64,000 nt of DNA. Origin: Dehalococcoides mccartyi 195 (GTDB lineage Bacteria; Chloroflexota; Dehalococcoidia; Dehalococcoidales; Dehalococcoidaceae). Under the pieces are notes generated by a model, which did no database searches, was not told the origin of the DNA, and saw nothing but the letters and a program-made list of their open reading frames with translations. This document shows, piece by piece, positions 1-10,445 of this stretch (position 1 is the first letter of the stretch; each line of letters begins with the position of its first letter). The stretch spans positions 1,054,001 to 1,118,000 of the forward strand of contig NC_002936.3 of assembly GCF_000011905.1 (NCBI RefSeq). The letters are read 5' to 3'. Both the position numbers and the translations under genes were made by a program.

Positions 1-609
1 CGTATCCGAATAGTCAGGCAAAAGAGCGGCAGATATACCCAAATCCTGACAGATGCGCTTTATATAGCGGATATCTGCCGGAGATATCATTCCGGGCATT
101 ATGTTTATGCCGCCATGTTCTTCTTTTTTCACAGCCAGAGCCTTAGCGGTTGCCAGAACAGCCTTGTGAAAACCGGTCAGGTGTGAACCGGCATAACTGG
201 GGGTAGAAGCGAAAACCAGCTGGGTCTCACCCAAATCAACGCTTTGGCGGAATTCTTCTATTAAGGCCGGCACATTTTCACCAATGGTTTCTGAAAGGCA
301 GGTGCTGGCAATACCTATAAGGTCAGGCTGATATTGAGAAATAACATTTTTCAAGCCGCAAAAAAGGTTATCCTTGCCCCCGAAGACAGTGGCCTCTTCT
401 CCAAAGGAAGAGGAAGCAATATCCATAGGCTCGCGGAAATGGCTGATAGTATAACGGCGGATATAGGTTGCACAGCCCTGCCCGCCGTGAAGATAAGGCA
501 GACAGCGGGCTATCCCCGAAAAGGCAATGCTTGCCCCAAGAGGTGCGCATAAATAACAGGCGTTACGGGTAGCCTCGTGAGGGGCAGTTTGATAATCAGA
601 AACAGTCAT
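1..609 (-). CDS. nifN: NifN, nitrogenase FeMo-cofactor scaffold subunit (partial, C-terminus off the window)
   Basis: My translation from the ATG at 609 gives 203 residues, open to the window edge, so the C-terminal half is missing here. The start overlaps the nifE stop as ATGA. It resembles NifK, with HGGQGCATY, FGGKDNL, STCLSETIGENV and TPSYAGSHLTGF blocks. Position after nifE and its difference from the separate nifK support NifN. With NifE it forms the scaffold on which the NifB product is matured into FeMo-cofactor before transfer to NifDK. Translational coupling with nifE fits a one-to-one complex. Confidence 0.9.
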   Translation of the reverse strand, partial: MTVSDYQTAPHEATRNACYLCAPLGASIAFSGIARCLPYLHGGQGCATYIRRYTISHFREPMDIASSSFGEEATVFGGKDNLFCGLKNVISQYQPDLIGIASTCLSETIGENVPALIEEFRQSVDLGETQLVFASTPSYAGSHLTGFHKAVLATAKALAVKKEEHGGINIMPGMISPADIRYIKRICQDLGISAALLPDYSDT

Positions 610-1970
610 GTCTGTTCACCCCCGGTATGCAGGCGGCGTCTGGGCATTAGAGACCAGACCGGGCTGCAAACTGAGGTATACACTTCGCGCGCAAAATTAA
701 GCATGCCGCTGTATCCGGCCAGACAAATTTTGCGTTCATGGTTATGGTCACAAAAGCCCACCCCCAGCTTATAGGCAATGGGTCTTTCCTTGACCCCGCC
801 GATAATCAAATCAACCCCTTTTTCCTGCACATATTTAGCCAGCTCCAGCGGGTTGGTATCGTCCAGCAGCACGGTGTCTTCGTCACACAAATCCGCCAGC
901 TGGCGGTAGTCATCTTTATCTCCTGTTTGGGAACCGGCTACCACTGTTTTAATCCCCAGCGTCCGCAGGGAGCGTACCATGGAAAACACCTTGAAAGCCC
1001 CTCCGGTGTAGACCAGCGCTCTGGCCCCCTCCAGCTTCCGCCGGTATTCCCGCAGTTCGGGCATTATAGAGGCTACTTCCTGCGAAACCAGCTCCCGGGT
1101 ACGGCTAAGCATGGCCTCATCTCCCAGCTTTTCCGCCACCTCGTACAGGGCTTTAGACATATCTTCAATACCGAAATAGGAAACCCTGAGGTAAGGAATA
1201 CCATACTTTTCCTGCATCATTCTGGCTAATGCCATCATAGAGCCGGAACACTGGACTACGTTCAGACTAGCCCCGTGGGCACGGCGGATTTCATCTACCC
1301 GGCCATCTCCGGTTATAGTTGAAACTACCTGTATACCCATCCGCCGATAGTATTCCTTTATCTGCCAGATTTCACCGGCTATATTAAAGTCTCCCAGAAT
1401 ATTCAGGCTCAGCTTGCTGATTCCGGCGGTATCAGCCGTACCTACCAGACGGCTCAGGGCCTGGCAGGCAGCCTGATAGCCGTTTTTCTTGGTACCCCTG
1501 AACCCTTCGGAATGAACCGGGATAACATCAATCCCTTTTTCCCGGCTAACAGTCCGGCAAACCGCCTCCACATCATCCCCGATAACCCCCACAATACAGG
1601 TGCTGTATACAAAGGCGGCTTTGGGATGATAAGTATCAATAAGCTCTGTCAGAACCCGGTAGAGTTTCTTTTCCCCTCCGAATATAACGTCCTTTTCCCT
1701 AAGGTCAGTTGAAAAACTCATCCGGTGCAGCTGCGGCCCGGAGGAAAGCGCCCCCCGTATATCCCAGGTATAGGCGGCACAACCTACCGGCCCGTGCACC
1801 AGATGCAGTGCGTCAGCAATGGGGTAAAGAACCACCCGTGAACCGCAAAACACACAGGCGCGCTGGCTTACCGAACCGGCCAGACTGGCCGTATCGCAGA
1901 CCATATCAAAGCCGGCGGCCTTGCCGCCTTCGCGTACCTGTTGTTTACGGTCTTTCAGAATTTCAATCAC
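606..1970 (-). CDS. nifE: NifE, nitrogenase FeMo-cofactor scaffold subunit
   Basis: A 454-residue protein of the nitrogenase component 1 family and NifD-like partner of NifN. N-terminal cysteines at C39, C42 and C64 (the last in HGPVGCAAYTWD) lie where this family binds an Fe-S cluster. The blocks FGGEKKL, YSTCIVGVIGDD and SEGFRGTKKNGYQAA follow. The start is GTG at 1970, ten bases after the nifK stop, with a weak AGGT ahead; no ATG fits better. It ends overlapping nifN. It is kept apart from NifD by its shorter length and by operon order. Confidence 0.93.
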   Translation of the reverse strand: MIEILKDRKQQVREGGKAAGFDMVCDTASLAGSVSQRACVFCGSRVVLYPIADALHLVHGPVGCAAYTWDIRGALSSGPQLHRMSFSTDLREKDVIFGGEKKLYRVLTELIDTYHPKAAFVYSTCIVGVIGDDVEAVCRTVSREKGIDVIPVHSEGFRGTKKNGYQAACQALSRLVGTADTAGISKLSLNILGDFNIAGEIWQIKEYYRRMGIQVVSTITGDGRVDEIRRAHGASLNVVQCSGSMMALARMMQEKYGIPYLRVSYFGIEDMSKALYEVAEKLGDEAMLSRTRELVSQEVASIMPELREYRRKLEGARALVYTGGAFKVFSMVRSLRTLGIKTVVAGSQTGDKDDYRQLADLCDEDTVLLDDTNPLELAKYVQEKGVDLIIGGVKERPIAYKLGVGFCDHNHERKICLAGYSGMLNFAREVYTSVCSPVWSLMPRRRLHTGGEQT

Positions 1971-1980
1971 TTTTGTTTAC

Positions 1981-3366
1981 CTACATGACCAGCTCAAAAG
2001 ATTCTTCTTTGCATTCGCGGTCTTTCTTATCCAAAAAGGCATTTAAAATCATTTCCAGCAAACGCATTGCCCCCCGATAGCCCACAACCGGGAAATACTG
2101 GTGGCCAACCCGGTCAAGAATGGGGAAGCCCAGCCGTACCAGCGGGGTATTTTCATCCCGGGCAATATACTTGCCGTAGGTATTGCCTATCAGCAGGTCT
2201 ACCCCCTCCTGCTTTATCCACTGATGAAGGCGGTACATATCCGCCCCCGGCCCCTGGGCTATTTTGGCTTCGGGGACTGAATCCCCCAGCACTGCGGCCA
2301 TTCTTTCTTCAAACCTTTTACCCGGCGTACCGGTCAGAACATATACCGGCTTCATATTAAGCAGCACCAGAAACTCGCTTAGGGCTACCAGCTGGTCAGG
2401 GTCTCCCCACAAAGCCACCCGCTTGCCGTAAGTGTACTGATGCAGGTTGGATATCAGATTTAGCAGGCGGCCGCGTTCTTCGGTAATGCTCTCAGGCACG
2501 TCAACATGAAAGCGCTTGCAAAGGGCATTTATAAAGCGGTCAGTTGCCTGCAGGCCGATGGGCAAATCCAGCAGGTCATAGGGCACTTTGCATTTTGAAT
2601 CCAGCTGGAGTGCTGCCGGGCCGGAGGCCGCTTCACCCAAAGCAAAGGTGATTTTGCTGCGGCCGGTATCACGGAGCTGCTTAATAGTAGTTCCCCCGGC
2701 CGGAAAAAGCTCGGAATGACCGGTAAGGGGAGTATCCAGCACCCCGGAGGTATCCGGGAACATAATGTAATTTATGCCCATTGCCTCTACCAGGCGTTTA
2801 ATTTCCCGCATATCCGCCGGTTCTACCCAACCCGGGATAATATTGGCGCGCCGCTCCGGCATGCCTTCAGCCGGTTCAGACAAATACTGCACCATGGATT
2901 TCACCATGTTGGCGAAACCGGTCACATGTGAGCCGGCATAGCTGGGGGTATTGGTATGGATAACCAGTTTTCCCTGCGGGATATGATTTTCTATTTTGGC
3001 CTTGCTGATAATCTGGGTAATATCATCACCGATAGTTTCAGACAAACAGGTAGTATGAACGGCAATAATATCCGGATTATAAACGCTGAATATATTGTCA
3101 ATAGCCTGGAGCAGATTGGCCTGCCCGCCGAAGACGCTGGCCCCTTCGGTAAAGGAGCTGGTACCGCTAAGCACCTGCTCCTTATAGTGGCGGGTCAGGG
3201 TGCTGCGGTGATACGCACAGCACCCCTGTGAGCCGTGGCTGTGCGGCAGGCAGTTATGAATACCCAGCGCGGCATACATGGCCCCTATGGGCTGGCATGT
3301 TTTAGCCGGGTTAATTGTCAGTGCTTCACGGGGCGAATCCCCGGGTGCGGTATGTCTGAGTAACAT
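1981..3366 (-). CDS. nifK: NifK, nitrogenase MoFe protein beta subunit
   Basis: A 461-residue beta subunit of dinitrogenase. The P-cluster cysteines are visible as C24 (KTCQPIGA), C49 or C50 (GSQGCCAYHR) and C107 (HTTCLSETIGDD); their spacing of 25 and 83 residues matches the Azotobacter protein. It lacks the long N-terminal extension of proteobacterial NifK, as in clostridial and archaeal nitrogenases. The ATG at 3366 follows GGAGGG at a rather long 12-base spacing and lies 28 bases after nifD. With NifD it forms the alpha2-beta2 enzyme that reduces N2 using electrons from NifH. Confidence 0.96.
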   Translation of the reverse strand: MLLRHTAPGDSPREALTINPAKTCQPIGAMYAALGIHNCLPHSHGSQGCCAYHRSTLTRHYKEQVLSGTSSFTEGASVFGGQANLLQAIDNIFSVYNPDIIAVHTTCLSETIGDDITQIISKAKIENHIPQGKLVIHTNTPSYAGSHVTGFANMVKSMVQYLSEPAEGMPERRANIIPGWVEPADMREIKRLVEAMGINYIMFPDTSGVLDTPLTGHSELFPAGGTTIKQLRDTGRSKITFALGEAASGPAALQLDSKCKVPYDLLDLPIGLQATDRFINALCKRFHVDVPESITEERGRLLNLISNLHQYTYGKRVALWGDPDQLVALSEFLVLLNMKPVYVLTGTPGKRFEERMAAVLGDSVPEAKIAQGPGADMYRLHQWIKQEGVDLLIGNTYGKYIARDENTPLVRLGFPILDRVGHQYFPVVGYRGAMRLLEMILNAFLDKKDRECKEESFELVM

Positions 3367-3394
3367 AGACTAGTTTATCCCTCCGTTCCCCCAA

Positions 3395-5014
3395 TCAGAT
3401 TCCATAGGTAGCTTTAACCTGAGTCTGGCGCTGCCAGGGTGCTTCAAGGTAAGACCAGATACGGCTGCTTACCAGCCGGTCAACATCTTTGTAAAAGTTA
3501 ATTGCCCCTTCAAACCCGGCAAACGGGCCGCCGTAATCGTAGCTATGAAGCTGCAGGCAGGGTATACCGGTTTTCTGAACTGCGTATTTTTCCTTAACAC
3601 CGGCACAATATAAATCCGGCTTATAGAGTTCCAGCAGGCGGAATGTTTCGTGGTGGCTGGGCTCGTCTATGGTAAGTGACCCGGCTTCCATCTCCGGCAT
3701 CATACCGGCATAGTCCTTAAATTCCACCCCATTTGCAGCCAGCTCAGCGCATTTCTCAGGGCTTACTCTTTCCTTATACCTTTCGGGGTCTTTTTCTACG
3801 GTCAGCTCCTCAATATTGCGTGAATCAGCATCCACCGTAATGCTGGGCAGTACCCTGCGTCCTTCATAATCATCCCGGTGGGCAAATTCATAACCGGCCG
3901 CCACCACTTCCATACCCAGCTCTTTAAAAAGCTCCTGATAGTGGTGGGCGCGTGAACCGCCTACAAAAAGCATCACCTTCTTGCCGCGGCAGCGTTCCTG
4001 GTACAGCTGGCGGGCTTCCGAAACCGCCGGCATTTCTTCTTCAATAACCCGTTCGGTCTGTTCAATCAGCTTTTCATCCCCGAAATAACGGGCAATCTTG
4101 CGCAGGGACTTGGCAGTTGCTTCCGCCCCGATAAAATTAACCTTAATCCAGGGAATGCCGTATTTGGTTTCCATCATATCAGCCATATAGTTGATAGAAC
4201 GGTGGCACATGACCAGATTAAGTTCGGCAGTATGGGAACGGCACATGCTGTCATGGTCTGAGTTGCCGCAGAAGGTTGAAACCAGCTCAAACCCGCAGCG
4301 GGCAAACAGGTCTTCAATTACAAAAGCGTCCCCGCCGATGTTATATTCACCCAGCAGATTTACCCGGTAGGGTGAGGGCGAAGCGGTGTTATCCGTACCC
4401 ACCATATGCTTGAATATCTGGTTGTTGGCTATATGGTGTCCGGCAGACTGTGAGACCCCCTTGTAGCCTTCACAGCTGAAACCGAAAACCTTGATGCCCA
4501 GTTTTTCCTGCGCCGCCCGGGTAACCTGATGGATATCGTCTCCAATCAGACCCACCGGACAGGTAGCATGAACAACTATGGTCTTGGGCTTGAAAAGCTG
4601 GTATGCCTCTTCTATAGCCTGGGCCAGTTTTTTCTCACCCCCGAAGACTATTTCTGACTCCTGCATATCAGTAGATAAACAGTAAGTCATAAAATTTTCG
4701 TCTTCCGGCTTGGGCGGGCGGGTCTGGTTACGCCGGGTCAGCCATGAATAAAAACCGCACCCGATAGGGCCGTGAGTAATGCTTAAAACATCTCTGGTGG
4801 GCCCCAAAATAACGCCTTTGCACCCTGCATAAGCACAGCCCCGCATGGTAATCAGGCCGGGAACAGTCCGGGCGTTGGCCGCAATTTGGGGTGTTTCGTC
4901 TGTGCCGGTATTAACTACAATAGCCTTAGCCCTTTTGCGGGCAATTTTTGAAGGAAAATCAGCAACCAGCTTATCCTTGATTTCCTCCGGGTTATATATT
5001 GATTCCTTTACCAC
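3395..5014 (-). CDS. nifD: NifD, nitrogenase MoFe protein alpha subunit
   Basis: A 539-residue catalytic subunit. P-cluster cysteines are C60, C86 and C152. The FeMo-cofactor ligands are C270 (NLVMCHRS) and H490 (LQLHSYDYGG), and the substrate-site Gln-His pair is in QSAGHH near 189-194. All key residues are present, so the enzyme should be a functional Mo nitrogenase. It is longer than the usual 475-490 residues because of an insertion of roughly 50 residues around 388-445, as in the Clostridium pasteurianum type. It follows nifI2 by 11 bases and precedes nifK. Confidence 0.97.
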   Translation of the reverse strand: MVKESIYNPEEIKDKLVADFPSKIARKRAKAIVVNTGTDETPQIAANARTVPGLITMRGCAYAGCKGVILGPTRDVLSITHGPIGCGFYSWLTRRNQTRPPKPEDENFMTYCLSTDMQESEIVFGGEKKLAQAIEEAYQLFKPKTIVVHATCPVGLIGDDIHQVTRAAQEKLGIKVFGFSCEGYKGVSQSAGHHIANNQIFKHMVGTDNTASPSPYRVNLLGEYNIGGDAFVIEDLFARCGFELVSTFCGNSDHDSMCRSHTAELNLVMCHRSINYMADMMETKYGIPWIKVNFIGAEATAKSLRKIARYFGDEKLIEQTERVIEEEMPAVSEARQLYQERCRGKKVMLFVGGSRAHHYQELFKELGMEVVAAGYEFAHRDDYEGRRVLPSITVDADSRNIEELTVEKDPERYKERVSPEKCAELAANGVEFKDYAGMMPEMEAGSLTIDEPSHHETFRLLELYKPDLYCAGVKEKYAVQKTGIPCLQLHSYDYGGPFAGFEGAINFYKDVDRLVSSRIWSYLEAPWQRQTQVKATYGI

Positions 5015-5025
5015 GGTTTTGCTCC

Positions 5026-5418
5026 TTACAAGACATTGACCACAGAGTCTATGGCGTCCTCGCCCCGTTCACCTGTACGTAACCGTACCGCTTCCAGTAC
5101 CGGCATGACAAAGATTTTGCCGTCACCGTGATTTTCTGTCCGGTTTACTTCTATAACTGTATTAACCACTGTTTTCACCTGATCATCCGGCACCACCAGG
5201 GTAATCAGCCGCTTGGGTACCAGCTTGAGAGACGGCCCAAGCTGGGAAATGGCTTCTTCATGGCCGCCTTCGGCTCCCGCCAGCAGCAGATAATCCACAT
5301 TACCTTTACCCCGGCCCATGGTCTTCAGCATCGTAATGGAAGCAAAGCCAGCATCCACCAGGGCGCGCTTAGTAATATTTATCTTGTTAAACCTGATAAT
5401 AGCCATAACCTCTTTCAT
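5026..5418 (-). CDS. nifI2: NifI2, nitrogenase PII-like regulator
   Basis: A 130-residue PII-family protein beginning MKEVMAIIRFNKINITKRAL, with a long T-loop region and the C-terminal HGDGKIFVMPV block typical of PII. It lies between nifH and nifD, second of a pair. That is the NifI1-NifI2 arrangement of archaeal and anaerobe nitrogenases. In methanogens the NifI1-NifI2 complex binds dinitrogenase and switches it off when 2-oxoglutarate is low, that is, when ammonium is plentiful. Function here is inferred from that precedent and from position. Confidence 0.92.
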   Translation of the reverse strand: MKEVMAIIRFNKINITKRALVDAGFASITMLKTMGRGKGNVDYLLLAGAEGGHEEAISQLGPSLKLVPKRLITLVVPDDQVKTVVNTVIEVNRTENHGDGKIFVMPVLEAVRLRTGERGEDAIDSVVNVL

Positions 5419-5427
5419 ATGTACCCC

Positions 5428-5757
5428 CTACAAAACAGCGCTGCCGGTGCTGATGGTATAGGCTTCTTCCACCGGTGAGATAAAAATCTTACCGTCACCG
5501 AAGTTGCCTTTTTCACCAGTCCGGGCAGTTTTCATAATGGTATCAATGACAAATTCCTTGTCCTTGTCATCTATAACTGTCAAAAGCAGCACTTTGGGCA
5601 ATTCGTCATAGGAAACACTGCCAGCCCGGATACCCCGCTGTTTGCCGCGCCCGAAAACGTCTATCTTGGTAACAGCCGGAAAGCCGGCATACATAAGCTC
5701 CGCCATAACATCGTCCACTTTTTCAGGGCGCACAATGGCCCGCACCATAATCATCAT
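5428..5757 (-). CDS. nifI1: NifI1, nitrogenase PII-like regulator
   Basis: A 109-residue PII-family protein of ordinary PII length, with VRAIVRPEKVDDVMAEL at the start and FGDGKIFISPVEEAYTI near the C-terminus. It is first of the pair, 24 bases after nifH and 9 bases before nifI2, which matches nifI1 elsewhere. With NifI2 it is expected to give rapid post-translational control of nitrogenase, in addition to transcriptional control at the nifH promoter. No AmtB gene adjoins it, which argues against a general GlnK role. Confidence 0.92.
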   Translation of the reverse strand: MMIMVRAIVRPEKVDDVMAELMYAGFPAVTKIDVFGRGKQRGIRAGSVSYDELPKVLLLTVIDDKDKEFVIDTIMKTARTGEKGNFGDGKIFISPVEEAYTISTGSAVL

Positions 5758-5781: not shown

Positions 5782-6660
<879 letters not shown>

Positions 6661-6689
6661 TCACTTTACCAATTCTGTATTGCCGCACG

Positions 6690-6739
6690 GTTTCTATCAG
6701 GTAAAATATTTGTTTCCCGCAGATTTCCAAAAGGTAAAC
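6690..6739 (-). promoter_or_regulatory. GlnR-like box array upstream of nifH
   Basis: On the minus strand this reads as five boxes separated by exactly six bases each: TTTAC, GAAAT, GAAAC, TTTAC, GAAAC. The 11-bp phasing and box sequences resemble the gTnAC-n6-GaAAC sites of actinobacterial GlnR. The array ends 83 bases before the nifH start, in the 177-bp modC-nifH gap. I could not pick a convincing -10 element, which would suit an activated promoter. That GlnR-type binding occurs here is inference. Confidence 0.7.
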
Positions 6740-6783: not shown

Positions 6784-7890
6784 TCAACCAGCCAGGCTGC
6801 CGGTTTGGGCTGTTTCCCCTGCCTGTCCAACTACTACCAGATGCTCCGTGGGGAAACAGAAATTGAGGCGGCTGCCCACTTTAAGGGAAGCATCCGCCGG
6901 AGGGGGAAGAAAGGCTTCAAAGGTATACTGCAAATTTGCACCGGCGGAAAAGAAACAGCGGGTTGAAGCGACTTCATTTATCACTCCGCTGACCACCCCC
7001 GGCAGGCTGTTTTCTTCGGCGGCCGCAGACACCCGGACAAATTCAGAGCGGATACCCAAAGTAAGACGCATACCTACCGCCAGCTGCATCTGTTCAGGCA
7101 GACGTATCTTGAACAGGCTAAGGCCGGGTACTTCCAGATATAAATCCTGTCCGATTATCTGGCTGACTGTCCCGACCAGCAGGTTTTTAAAGCCCATCAG
7201 CCCGGCTACCGTCAGATTAGCCGGAGAACCCACTATCTTGCCTTTGTCCCCGCACTGGGCTATCCGCCCGGATTCATATATGGCCATTTTGGATGACATC
7301 CGGTAGCCTTCGGCAAAATTATGGGTAACCAGAATAATAATGCCCTTGTAAAACTGCTGAAGGCTAAGCAGCTCTATTTCCAGACTTTCCTTAACCACCG
7401 CGTCCAAAGCCGAAAAAGGCTCATCCAGCAGGAGTACCCTGGGTTCGGGGGCAATGGCTCTGGCCAAAGCTACCCGCTGCTGCTGCCCGGCAGACAGCTG
7501 GCTGGGAAAGCGATGCCCCAGAGAGGCTATATGCATATTTTCCATCAGACGGGTGATAATGCCGTCACTTTCGGCCTTTTCCAGATGCCTTATACCATAA
7601 GCAATGTTATCCCTGACGGTAAGGTGGGGAAAAAGGGCATAGTTTTGAAAAACAAATCCCACCCGGCGTACCTGAGGGCGGATATCAATCTTGCGGGAGG
7701 TATCCAGCAGGACTTCCCCGTTCAGATTTATATACCCTTCGTCAACCTGAGTAAGCCCGGCAACACACTGCAGGGTCATGGTTTTGCCGGAACCGGAAGG
7801 CCCCAGCATAGCCATTATCCCGCTGTCAGCCGAAAAAGCCACCTCCAAATCAAAACCGGGCAGTTTCTTTTTTATGTTAACTTCAAGCAT
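6784..7890 (-). CDS. modC: ModC, molybdate ABC transporter ATP-binding protein
   Basis: A 368-residue ATPase with Walker A GPSGSGKT (30-37), signature LSAGQQQ (132-138), Walker B VLLLDEP (152-158) and a C-terminal TOBE/Mop-like domain (about 270-360) that in this family senses oxyanion. It powers uptake through ModB. Third gene of modABC and immediately upstream of the nif promoter region, so molybdate supply is placed with the enzyme that needs it. Sulfate or tungstate transport is possible by sequence alone; nif context favours molybdate. Confidence 0.88.
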   Translation of the reverse strand: MLEVNIKKKLPGFDLEVAFSADSGIMAMLGPSGSGKTMTLQCVAGLTQVDEGYINLNGEVLLDTSRKIDIRPQVRRVGFVFQNYALFPHLTVRDNIAYGIRHLEKAESDGIITRLMENMHIASLGHRFPSQLSAGQQQRVALARAIAPEPRVLLLDEPFSALDAVVKESLEIELLSLQQFYKGIIILVTHNFAEGYRMSSKMAIYESGRIAQCGDKGKIVGSPANLTVAGLMGFKNLLVGTVSQIIGQDLYLEVPGLSLFKIRLPEQMQLAVGMRLTLGIRSEFVRVSAAAEENSLPGVVSGVINEVASTRCFFSAGANLQYTFEAFLPPPADASLKVGSRLNFCFPTEHLVVVGQAGETAQTGSLAG

Positions 7891-7932
7891 TTACCCCCTC
7901 CTCAAAGCCATTTCAGCCGCCTTACCGCCGTT

Positions 7933-8613
7933 TTAGGGCTTGGCCGGTATTTTCAGCTTCCAGTAAGTCAAAGCCGCCAGTGATACAAAAGAAATGGCCA
8001 GTACAATAAAGACCAGTACCATAGCTTTATCCGTATGTCCGGCCTGAATATTGAAATAAATAGCCACCGGAATAGTGGTGGTCTTGCCGGGTATATTTCC
8101 GGCCAGCATCAGGGTAGCCCCGAATTCACCCAGAGCCCGGGCAAACGCCAGCACAGTAGCCGCCATAATAGCCGGACGGGCAGCCGGCATGGTAATAGTC
8201 CAGAAAACCCGCCACTCGCTAGCCCCCAGTGTCCGGGCGGCATTTTCAATATTTACGTCCACCTGCTCAAAACCCGCTCTGGCGGACATATACATCAGGG
8301 GAAAGGTCATGATAACGGCGGCGATTACGGTGGCCGGCCAGGAGAATACTACCGTCATATCAAACAGCGATAGGAATTCTCCCAGCGGCCCGTTTTTGCC
8401 AAACAGCATCAGCAGGCCGAAACCGACCACCGTAGGCGGAAGCACCAGCGGCAGGATAAAAATCCCGTCTATCATGCCCTTGTATTTGCCTGAGTATCTG
8501 GCCATCCAGCGGGCTACCGCAATACCCAGAATAAAGGTTATGGCGGTAGTAACCAGAACCGTTTTGCATGATATCCACAGTGGTAAAAGATATGAATCCA
8601 CATCCGCTTCCAA
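7933..8613 (-). CDS. modB: ModB, molybdate ABC transporter permease
   Basis: An inner-membrane permease of 226 residues with about five hydrophobic segments and the cytoplasmic EAA loop (AARTLGASEWRVFWTITMP) that docks to the ATPase. The start is uncertain. A TTG at 8613 has no ribosome site, while an in-frame GTG at 8601 has GGAAG five bases ahead and would give 222 residues. It lies 17 bases after modA and 42 bases before modC. Confidence 0.88.
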   Translation of the reverse strand: MEADVDSYLLPLWISCKTVLVTTAITFILGIAVARWMARYSGKYKGMIDGIFILPLVLPPTVVGFGLLMLFGKNGPLGEFLSLFDMTVVFSWPATVIAAVIMTFPLMYMSARAGFEQVDVNIENAARTLGASEWRVFWTITMPAARPAIMAATVLAFARALGEFGATLMLAGNIPGKTTTIPVAIYFNIQAGHTDKAMVLVFIVLAISFVSLAALTYWKLKIPAKP

Positions 8614-8630
8614 TAAGTTAATTTAAGGGT

Positions 8631-9434
8631 TTAACCCTCAGCTAAACTAAAGCCGTATTCGGCAAAGATAGCAGCCGCTTCCTGCCCGAAAAGAAAATCT
8701 ATATATGCCTGGGCAGCTTCAATATCCTGGCAGCCCTTTATAATGGCGGCAGGGTATACAATCAGGGTATTCACCTCAGCCGGGGCTTCGGCTACTATCA
8801 CTACACCATCTGTAATGGCAGCATCAGTGGAATAAACAATACCGGCTTCCACATTAGCGCCTTCCACATAGCCCAGAACCTGGCGGACATCACTGCCTAA
8901 AATCAGCTTGGGCAGCAGCTGGTCATAAATACCCAGTATCTCCAAAGCTTTTTTACCGTAAGTTCCCGCCGGTACAAATTCCGGGTCACCCAGGGCGATG
9001 CGCACCACGCCTGAATCCAGAAGGTCCATAAAACTGTCCAGCCCCAGGGTACTATCAGACGGGACAATCAGAACAATCTTATTATTCAAAAGATTGCGGC
9101 GGCTGGAATCCACCAGAAAACCGCCTTCTTCCAGGGCATTCATCTGGGCGGGTGCCGCCGAGATAAACACATCTACCGGAGCCCCGTTTTCAATCTGCTT
9201 CTGCAAAGTACCGGAAGAAGCAAAGTTGACACTCAAAGTAACCCAGCTGTTTTCCTGCATGTACAGGGCATTAATCTCCTGGAGGGCATCAGTCATGCTG
9301 GCGGCGGCGGAAATACTGATTTCAACAGCTACATGGTTTTCCTCAGCCGGGGAACAGCCGGAAAAAACCAACACCCCCATTACCGCAAAAACAGCCACAA
9401 ACCGGGGTAAAATACGGTTAACCATTCTCTTCAT
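8631..9434 (-). CDS. modA: ModA, molybdate-binding lipoprotein
   Basis: A 267-residue periplasmic-type binding protein with a lipoprotein signal ending in the lipobox VFSGC (cysteine near 27). The mature part starts AVEISISAAASMTDALQEI, characteristic of ModA-type oxyanion receptors, with further blocks FASSGTLQKQIENGAPVDVFISA and AEAPAEVNTLIVYPAAI. First gene of the modABC operon. A leader of about 150 bases with possible RNA structure and a GlnR-like box array lie upstream. Confidence 0.92.
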   Translation of the reverse strand: MKRMVNRILPRFVAVFAVMGVLVFSGCSPAEENHVAVEISISAAASMTDALQEINALYMQENSWVTLSVNFASSGTLQKQIENGAPVDVFISAAPAQMNALEEGGFLVDSSRRNLLNNKIVLIVPSDSTLGLDSFMDLLDSGVVRIALGDPEFVPAGTYGKKALEILGIYDQLLPKLILGSDVRQVLGYVEGANVEAGIVYSTDAAITDGVVIVAEAPAEVNTLIVYPAAIIKGCQDIEAAQAYIDFLFGQEAAAIFAEYGFSLAEG

Positions 9435-9546: not shown

Positions 9547-9587
9547 CTTTTAATATATTTACTATACAAAAGCAGTGTTGCCAGCTA

Positions 9588-9637
9588 ATTAATGGCAGTT
9601 AAAATGTTTGTTTCTTGAATGTTTCCGGCAGGTAAAC
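9588..9637 (-). promoter_or_regulatory. GlnR-like box array upstream of modA
   Basis: On the minus strand the boxes TTTAC, GAAAC, GAAAC and TTTAA are separated by six bases each, followed by a degenerate fifth box TTAAT. The array aligns without gaps with the one before nifH. It ends 153 bases before modA. A possible promoter (TTAGCT, 16 bases, TATAGT) lies just downstream, overlapping the end of the array. Confidence 0.65.
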
Positions 9638-9640
9638 AGG

Positions 9641-10360
9641 CTAGGCAACCGGCAGACGGGCAGCGCGGAAGGTGTATCCCACCCCTCTGACCGTCTTGAT
9701 ATATTTCTCGTTAAAGTCACCTATTTTGGAACGCAGACGCCGGATATGCACGTCTACGGTGCGGGTGCCGCCGTAATAGTCAAACCCCCAGATAGTCTCC
9801 AGCAGAGATTCGCGGGTATAGACCCGCCCCCGGTTAGAAGCCAAGTATTTCAGCAGCTCATACTCTTTAAGCGTCAGGCTAAGCAAACGGTCTTTGACCC
9901 TGACCTCATAACTGTCCAAAGTTATTGAAATGTCATCTATCTCTATAATATTCCGGCTGACTTTCTGCCGGAACTGGTAAATAATCCGCCCCAGCCGGAA
10001 TTCCATTTCCGGGCGGCTGTAAGGCGTGATAATAATTTCATCAAACTCAAACTGGCGGGGAATTTTGCGCATGGTCTTTTCATTCACCACCGCCACCAGG
10101 GGTATATCAGGGGTAAAAACCTTTCCGCCCAAAAGTTTCTCACAGGCCTCAAGGCGGTCGTCATCCCAATCAATAAGGCAGATAATTACCGCATCCAGCG
10201 GTTCGGTGCTGTTTTCCAGCAGCTTAACCAGCGAAAAATCAAAACTCAGGCAGGAATAACCGGCCTCAGTCAGGTCATTTTCAAGCCCGTTAGGCAAAAT
10301 ATCGGAACAGCCGATGAGCGCCAGTTTCGGGGTATTATCAGGTAACTTTCTGTTCATCAT
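9641..10360 (-). CDS. GlnR-like orphan OmpR-family transcriptional regulator
   Basis: A 239-residue protein. The N-terminal receiver-like domain (about 10-125) lacks the phosphorylation site: Cys61 stands where the acceptor Asp should be (DAVIIC), and the acidic pocket is also poor. The C-terminal winged helix (about 140-235) contains LTLKEYELLKYLA and YYGGTRTVDVHIRRLRSKIG. The GGTRTVDVH form and the atypical receiver recall actinobacterial GlnR rather than PhoB or OmpR. No histidine kinase adjoins it. It sits upstream of modABC and nif on the same strand. A nitrogen-responsive role is inference; the family call is firm. Confidence 0.75.
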   Translation of the reverse strand: MMNRKLPDNTPKLALIGCSDILPNGLENDLTEAGYSCLSFDFSLVKLLENSTEPLDAVIICLIDWDDDRLEACEKLLGGKVFTPDIPLVAVVNEKTMRKIPRQFEFDEIIITPYSRPEMEFRLGRIIYQFRQKVSRNIIEIDDISITLDSYEVRVKDRLLSLTLKEYELLKYLASNRGRVYTRESLLETIWGFDYYGGTRTVDVHIRRLRSKIGDFNEKYIKTVRGVGYTFRAARLPVA

Positions 10361-10382
10361 AAATCTATGATAACAGTCAATT

Positions 10383-10445
10383 ATTACCGGTATATTACCG
10401 TTTTATTACATCTTATCTTAAAAAATAATGTAACACGGCTGTAAT
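10383..10445. promoter_or_regulatory. Phased repeat array between the GlnR-like gene and marR
   Basis: On the plus strand ATTAC occurs at 10383, 10394 and 10405, exactly 11 bp apart, and GTAAC (10430) and GTAAT (10441) are again 11 bp apart. These match the gTnAC half of a GlnR-type site. The array lies 23 bases from the start of the GlnR-like gene, where it could serve autoregulation, and also upstream of the divergent marR promoter. Confidence 0.5.

Follow-up and report, generated by a model that had tools for sequence, protein, structure and literature searches.

Phased box arrays built like actinobacterial GlnR promoters upstream of nifH and other nitrogen genes in Dehalococcoidia

Described GlnR systems and the nif/mod island of strain 195

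The closest described counterpart of the promoters analysed here is the GlnR regulon of Actinomycetota (PDB 8hig and 8hml from S. erythraea and 8hih from M. tuberculosis). There, a regulator with an atypical receiver and no adjoining kinase has glnA and amtB among its targets, the −10 element of glnA lies at 10 bp, and the gTnAC/GaAAC boxes are repeated in 11-bp phase, with the consensus gTnAC-n6-GaAAC (PMC10704036). Counterparts of these features are seen in Dehalococcoidia, with glnA and amtB as predicted targets. In contrast to the actinobacterial systems, however, this class belongs to another phylum, its boxes are mostly [GT][TA]AA[CT], the regulator gene adjoins gltB and amtB, the predicted targets include nif and mod, and strain 195 has two GlnR-like paralogues, designated RR-A and RR-B. 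Streptomyces GlnRII resembles RR-A in being an additional nitrogen regulator of the OmpR family that has a GlnR-like DNA-binding domain but no phosphorylation residues (PMC10704036). This likeness is one of description and not of sequence comparison, and RR-A, for its part, sits in the nif/mod island.

The name GlnR is also borne by a MerR-family protein of Paenibacillus, which is unrelated to the OmpR type of Dehalococcoidia. The parallel there is that this regulator controls nif in response to nitrogen (PMC6191146). PhoB/PhoP-type Pho boxes are also 11-bp direct repeats placed at a constant distance before the −10 element but, unlike the nifH array, they are TTAAC-type repeats without GAAAC and precede phosphate-type genes and mgsA. 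In the literature searched, OmpR-type GlnR was described only in actinobacteria, nothing relevant was found for Chloroflexi, Chloroflexota or Dehalococcoides, and no transcriptional regulator was reported for nitrogenase in Chloroflexota. An earlier inspection of the letters alone (the sequence-only reading) knew of no description of a GlnR-like nitrogen regulon in this phylum. The arrays reported here point to a nitrogen switch of the GlnR type in Dehalococcoidia, a class without one in the literature searched. They also suggest that Actinomycetota and Dehalococcoidia share one promoter code, whether inherited or transferred, and that a GlnR-like protein can control nif without NifA. For a group used in chlorinated-solvent clean-up, where nitrogen supply matters, the outcome is a promoter code and a list of targets, with two proteins as candidate regulators.

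The window, i.e., the whole 64-kb stretch of DNA that was analysed, comprises C1:1054001-1118000 of the single-contig genome (1,469,720 bases). The gene order on its minus strand is RR-A, modABC and nifH-I1-I2-D-K-E, with nifB farther on, outside the window (Table 1). The published nif locus of strain 195 is DET1151-1158 (PMC13390414). We infer that the ModABC transporter is specific for molybdate.

Table 1. Genes, boxes and predicted promoter elements of the nif/mod island and the RR-B gene (window positions unless prefixed by C1)
Feature	Position	Strand	Basis or remark
nifE-like	606-1970	minus	named by sequence and order, without family search
nifK	1981-3366	minus	named by sequence and order, without family search
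nifD	3395-5014	minus	named by sequence and order, without family search
nifI2	5026-5418	minus	P-II match
nifI1	5428-5757	minus	P-II match
nif genes downstream of nifH	606..5757	minus	ORFs
nifH	5782..6606	minus	ATG start; Pfam Fer4_NifH
Predicted nifH −10, TACAGA	6674..6679	minus	exactly 10 bp past final box; off TAnnnT consensus at last base
Five-box array before nifH	6690..6738	minus	sequence; score beyond all shuffles
nifH box GAAAC	6690-6694	minus
nifH box TTTAC	6701-6705	minus
nifH box GAAAC	6712-6716	minus
nifH box GAAAT	6723-6727	minus
nifH box TTTAC	6734-6738	minus
modC	6784-7890	minus
modB	7933-8613	minus
modA	8631-9434	minus
modABC, molybdate-type ABC transporter	6784..9434	minus	Pfam SBP_bac_11, BPD_transp_1, ABC_tran, TOBE_2
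Predicted modA −10, TATAGT	9561..9566	minus	10 bp past GCAAC box; read from sequence
Six-box array before modA (TTTAC, GAAAC, GAAAC, TTTAA, TTAAT, GCAAC)	9577..9636	minus	first three or four boxes strong
RR-A, GlnR-like OmpR-family regulator, 239 aa	9641..10360	minus	best PDB match GlnR; tree
Predicted RR-A −10, TATCAT	10367..10372	minus	10 bp past final GTAAT
Three GTAAT boxes before RR-A gene	10383..10409	minus	11-bp phase
RR-B	C1:1030281-1030949		between gltB and amtB

Box arrays and promoter geometry

On the minus strand, the array upstream of nifH reads TTTAC-cttttg-GAAAT-ctgcgg-GAAAC-aaatat-TTTAC-ctgata-GAAAC. It is 49 bp long with a period of 11 bp, every spacer measures exactly 6 bp, and the nifH ATG (6606) follows the final box after 83 bp. 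The array follows the gTnAC-n6-GaAAC pattern of GlnR operators with their 11-bp phasing. The sequence-only reading, which had noticed five boxes with six-base spacers on this strand 83 bases before nifH, was borne out, except that its range of 6690-6739 was one base too long, the array ending at 6738. When each box was scored as KTNAC or GAAAC at period 11 (a/b-box model; 25 box positions in five boxes), the array reached 24/25, with one mismatch. The top score was 22 in 200 dinucleotide shuffles of the whole window, and likewise 22 in the unshuffled window at other periods from 7 to 16 bp. In 2000 shuffles of the intergenic region, a score of 24 was never attained. The exact combination GAAAC-n6-TTTAC-n6-GAAAC occurs once in the 1.47-Mb genome, in the nifH array.

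As at actinobacterial glnA, the nifH array is located 10 bp upstream of a predicted −10 element, with the last base of TACAGA deviating. The generality of this distance was measured on nitrogen-gene arrays that had been picked without regard to the downstream sequence. TAnnnT starts exactly 10 bp past the last box in all 37 four-box nitrogen-gene arrays with enough sequence; at any other single distance, at most 5 of the 37 have TAnnnT. The count excludes three longer arrays (G083, G113 and G068 amtB), in which the four-box match is not the end of the array; their final boxes are likewise 10 bp from TAnnnT. A search of 16 actinobacterial genomes for GlnR boxes combined with the 10-bp rule, with two mismatches allowed, gave a site upstream of glnA in 16/16 and no matches to the reversed control. 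Because these actinobacterial sites follow the same rule, the geometry of the arrays is that of GlnR promoters, though TTAAC-type, putatively PhoB-controlled promoters have it too: TTAAC-type arrays of equal geometry were found beside a canonical regulator and before mgsA.

The four-box pattern gave 69 matches in 101 genomes of the order, compared to 9 for the reversed control, and 41/60 distinct arrays examined lie upstream of amtB, glnA, PII, nifH or nifB. Such arrays are carried by the amtB, glnA and nifH upstream regions of relatives. Class-wide, 155/393 genomes had a match to a pattern of three boxes plus −10, against 20 matches in all for the reversed control. A position-specific model was trained on pattern-selected arrays; it is circular for box position 3, and nifH was not ranked by it. 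A lack of conservation of the boxes in other nif-bearing Dehalococcoidia had been named by the sequence-only reading as a refuting result, and this check did not refute it: the held-out nifH promoters of G068 and G071 bear strong arrays, and no array was found at nifH of G007. The nifH boxes are genuine and form part of a set of nitrogen-control promoters that spans the class and resembles the actinobacterial GlnR ones in build. There is strong support for the earlier idea that Chloroflexota have a GlnR-like nitrogen regulon, because the phased arrays at glnA, amtB, nifB, modA and nifH, conserved in relatives, share their geometry with actinobacterial glnA promoters. Regulator matches from the same phylum outside the class (L404-L406) were canonical OmpR regulators where inspected, so no claim is made for other classes of Chloroflexota. 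G068, which keeps a strong N-type array at nifH (L088), is probably Dehalogenimonas WBC-2, reported to be without nifB and nifV (PMC13390414).

Elsewhere in strain 195, the glnA array is GTAAC-GAAAC-GAAAT-GAAAT and the nifB array is TTAAC-TTAAC-TAAAT-GAAAC, while amtB has six weaker boxes. The glutamate-synthase operon is preceded by a weaker array, with no clear −10 at the expected place. The array positions agree with published nitrogen-limitation markers of this strain, among them nif, PII and the ammonium transporter (PMC3462421); activation of glnA and amtB itself we infer. The RR-A gene, which has an array at its own promoter, is flanked by the arrays of nifH and modA, and TTTAC boxes set these two arrays apart from most nitrogen arrays of the order. 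The RR-A −10 TATCAT sits only 6 bases before the ATG (window 10358-10372), so the RR-A mRNA may be leaderless.

The GlnR-like regulators RR-A and RR-B

The top PDB sequence matches of both RR-A and RR-B were GlnR entries. Matches to NCBIfam were all far below the cut-offs and included no GlnR model, and the naming of the regulators was therefore left to the tree and the PDB matches. In the tree, actinobacterial GlnR, RR-B and RR-A split from RegX3, MtrA, PhoP, BaeR and the canonical regulators of strain 195, with branch supports of 100/99 and 99 for the grouping (three badly cut rows of the first tree were removed in the second). RR-A forms a long branch, and its exact place within the GlnR group is unsure.

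The acidic pair and the beta-4 Thr of the phosphorylation pocket are absent in both proteins; in GlnR-like proteins overall, the acidic pair is lost and the beta-4 Thr nearly always so. Asp-50 of GlnR is needed for dimerisation. RR-B of strain 195 has an aligned Asp (IVLLDF), a residue present in this column in only 15/35 RR-B rows, and RR-A has Cys there, for which reason it is called GlnR-like and not GlnR. The loop before TVR has 9 residues in RR-A, in 13/13 GlnR and in 33/35 RR-B rows, and 11 residues in 7/12 canonical regulators. No histidine kinase adjoins RR-A (neighbours modA and a MarR-type gene) or RR-B (neighbours gltB and amtB). The recognition helix is HIRRLR or HVRRLR in RR-A and in those other RR-B rows from outside the genus that were viewed, and HITRLR, with Thr for Arg, in RR-B of strain 195 (L013:10278-10949). 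Helix identity was dropped as evidence for GlnR over PhoB, the helix being similar across the family. A fold search gave no discrimination either, since YycF/VicR DNA-binding domains score as high as GlnR.

Roughly half of the genomes in the order encode RR-B, as a rule next to gltB and amtB; across the order, RR-B orthologs occupy gltB/amtB/glnB/glnA neighbourhoods. No RR-A ortholog was found in either of the two further genomes of the genus or in the nif-bearing G068. The presence of arrays tracks that of RR-B (32/51 genomes with it vs 2/50 without), a comparison confounded by the dependence of both on having amtB. G440 and G413 have N-type arrays at amtB or glnA, yet gave no RR-B match at E 1e-30. 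The earlier choice of the 9641-10360 product as the regulator is only partly supported: the protein is GlnR-like as proposed, but RR-B is the conserved candidate and the better general candidate regulator.

Regulatory model and alternatives

The five boxes are very probably an operator of the GlnR type, and a GlnR-type, activator-dependent nitrogen promoter at nifH is in our judgement the best explanation of the whole, and a probable one. Binding, activation and the identity of the acting protein are predicted. Protomers of a GlnR-like OmpR-family protein would line up head to tail on the DNA, with one protomer for every 11 bp. As TACAGA follows the last box at 10 bp, the bound protein would contact RNA polymerase in place of a −35 element, as suggested by the geometry and by the GlnR complex structures (PMC10704036). 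When fixed nitrogen is short, the recruited polymerase would transcribe the nif operon. RR-B may be the general nitrogen regulator, and RR-B, or RR-A itself, would switch on the RR-A gene via the GTAAT boxes; RR-A, whose gene belongs to the nif island, would in turn drive modABC and nifH via the TTTAC/GAAAC boxes. The TTTAC boxes of nifH and modA, together with the array of RR-A, suggest such an RR-A-specific operator and cascade, to which we assign slightly less than an even chance. Just as tentative is the broader proposal that Dehalococcoidia govern nitrogen metabolism through a GlnR-type regulon and that, in nif-bearing Dehalococcoides, the duplicated GlnR-like protein RR-A forms a dedicated, sigma-54-independent cascade which turns on molybdate uptake and nitrogenase via TTTAC/GAAAC operators of its own.

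RR-B alone might instead bind the nifH array within a single regulon, with RR-A serving some other purpose or lacking separate targets. Its conservation across the order beside nitrogen genes is in keeping with this, as is G068, where the nifH array and RR-B are present and RR-A is absent. However, the two arrays flanking the RR-A gene have their unusual TTTAC boxes in common, and the RR-A gene has its own array promoter, and a single regulon is less likely than not. A PhoB-type operator that ties nitrogenase to phosphate supply is improbable, even though TTTAC boxes are common to the nifH array and PhoB-type arrays: TTAAC/TTTAC arrays that keep the 11-bp phase and the 10-bp distance are found before mgsA next to a canonical PhoB-like regulator, and before a pstS-like gene in G281. 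In contrast to these, 3/5 nifH boxes, including the one nearest the −10, are GAAAC or GAAAT, whereas TTAAC or TTAAT is the last box in the TTAAC-type arrays found, and these have no GAAAC. The nifH array does not consist of TTAAC-type repeats only, as those at the order's mgsA and pstS-like gene do, and related nifH promoters bear clear N-type arrays.

Chance origin of the boxes was rejected by the shuffle scores, none of which reached that of the array, and the arrays are conserved. NifA together with sigma-54, as in Proteobacteria, is the classical mechanism of nif control. However, no Sigma54_DBD (PF04552) match was found in the complete genome by a search that does match in control genomes, and NifA-type control was rejected because of this absence of detectable sigma-54. 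We regard the chance or NifA explanation as having practically no probability. Repression instead of activation would have a precedent in Amycolatopsis GlnR, which is reported to repress ald by binding at the transcription start (PMC4140684). The arrays, however, end at the position of the missing −35 element, 10 bp upstream of the −10 in 37/37, and no good sigma-70 promoter was found on the minus strand in the nifH region; a repressing role is accordingly quite unlikely.

Pho-type arrays may also be represented in strain 195. Each of the two mgsA genes is preceded by an 11-bp array of the TTAAC/TTTAC type, followed by a −10 at 10 bp (L205, C1:135400-135453; L354, C1:1419248-1419301). The first lies near a canonical PhoB-like regulator, and these arrays possibly mark a Pho-type regulon. 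One induced methylglyoxal synthase is DET1576 (PMC4340931). The mgsA gene at C1:1419346 has a TTAAC-type array with the −10 at 10 bp, and its boxes could be of the PhoB type.
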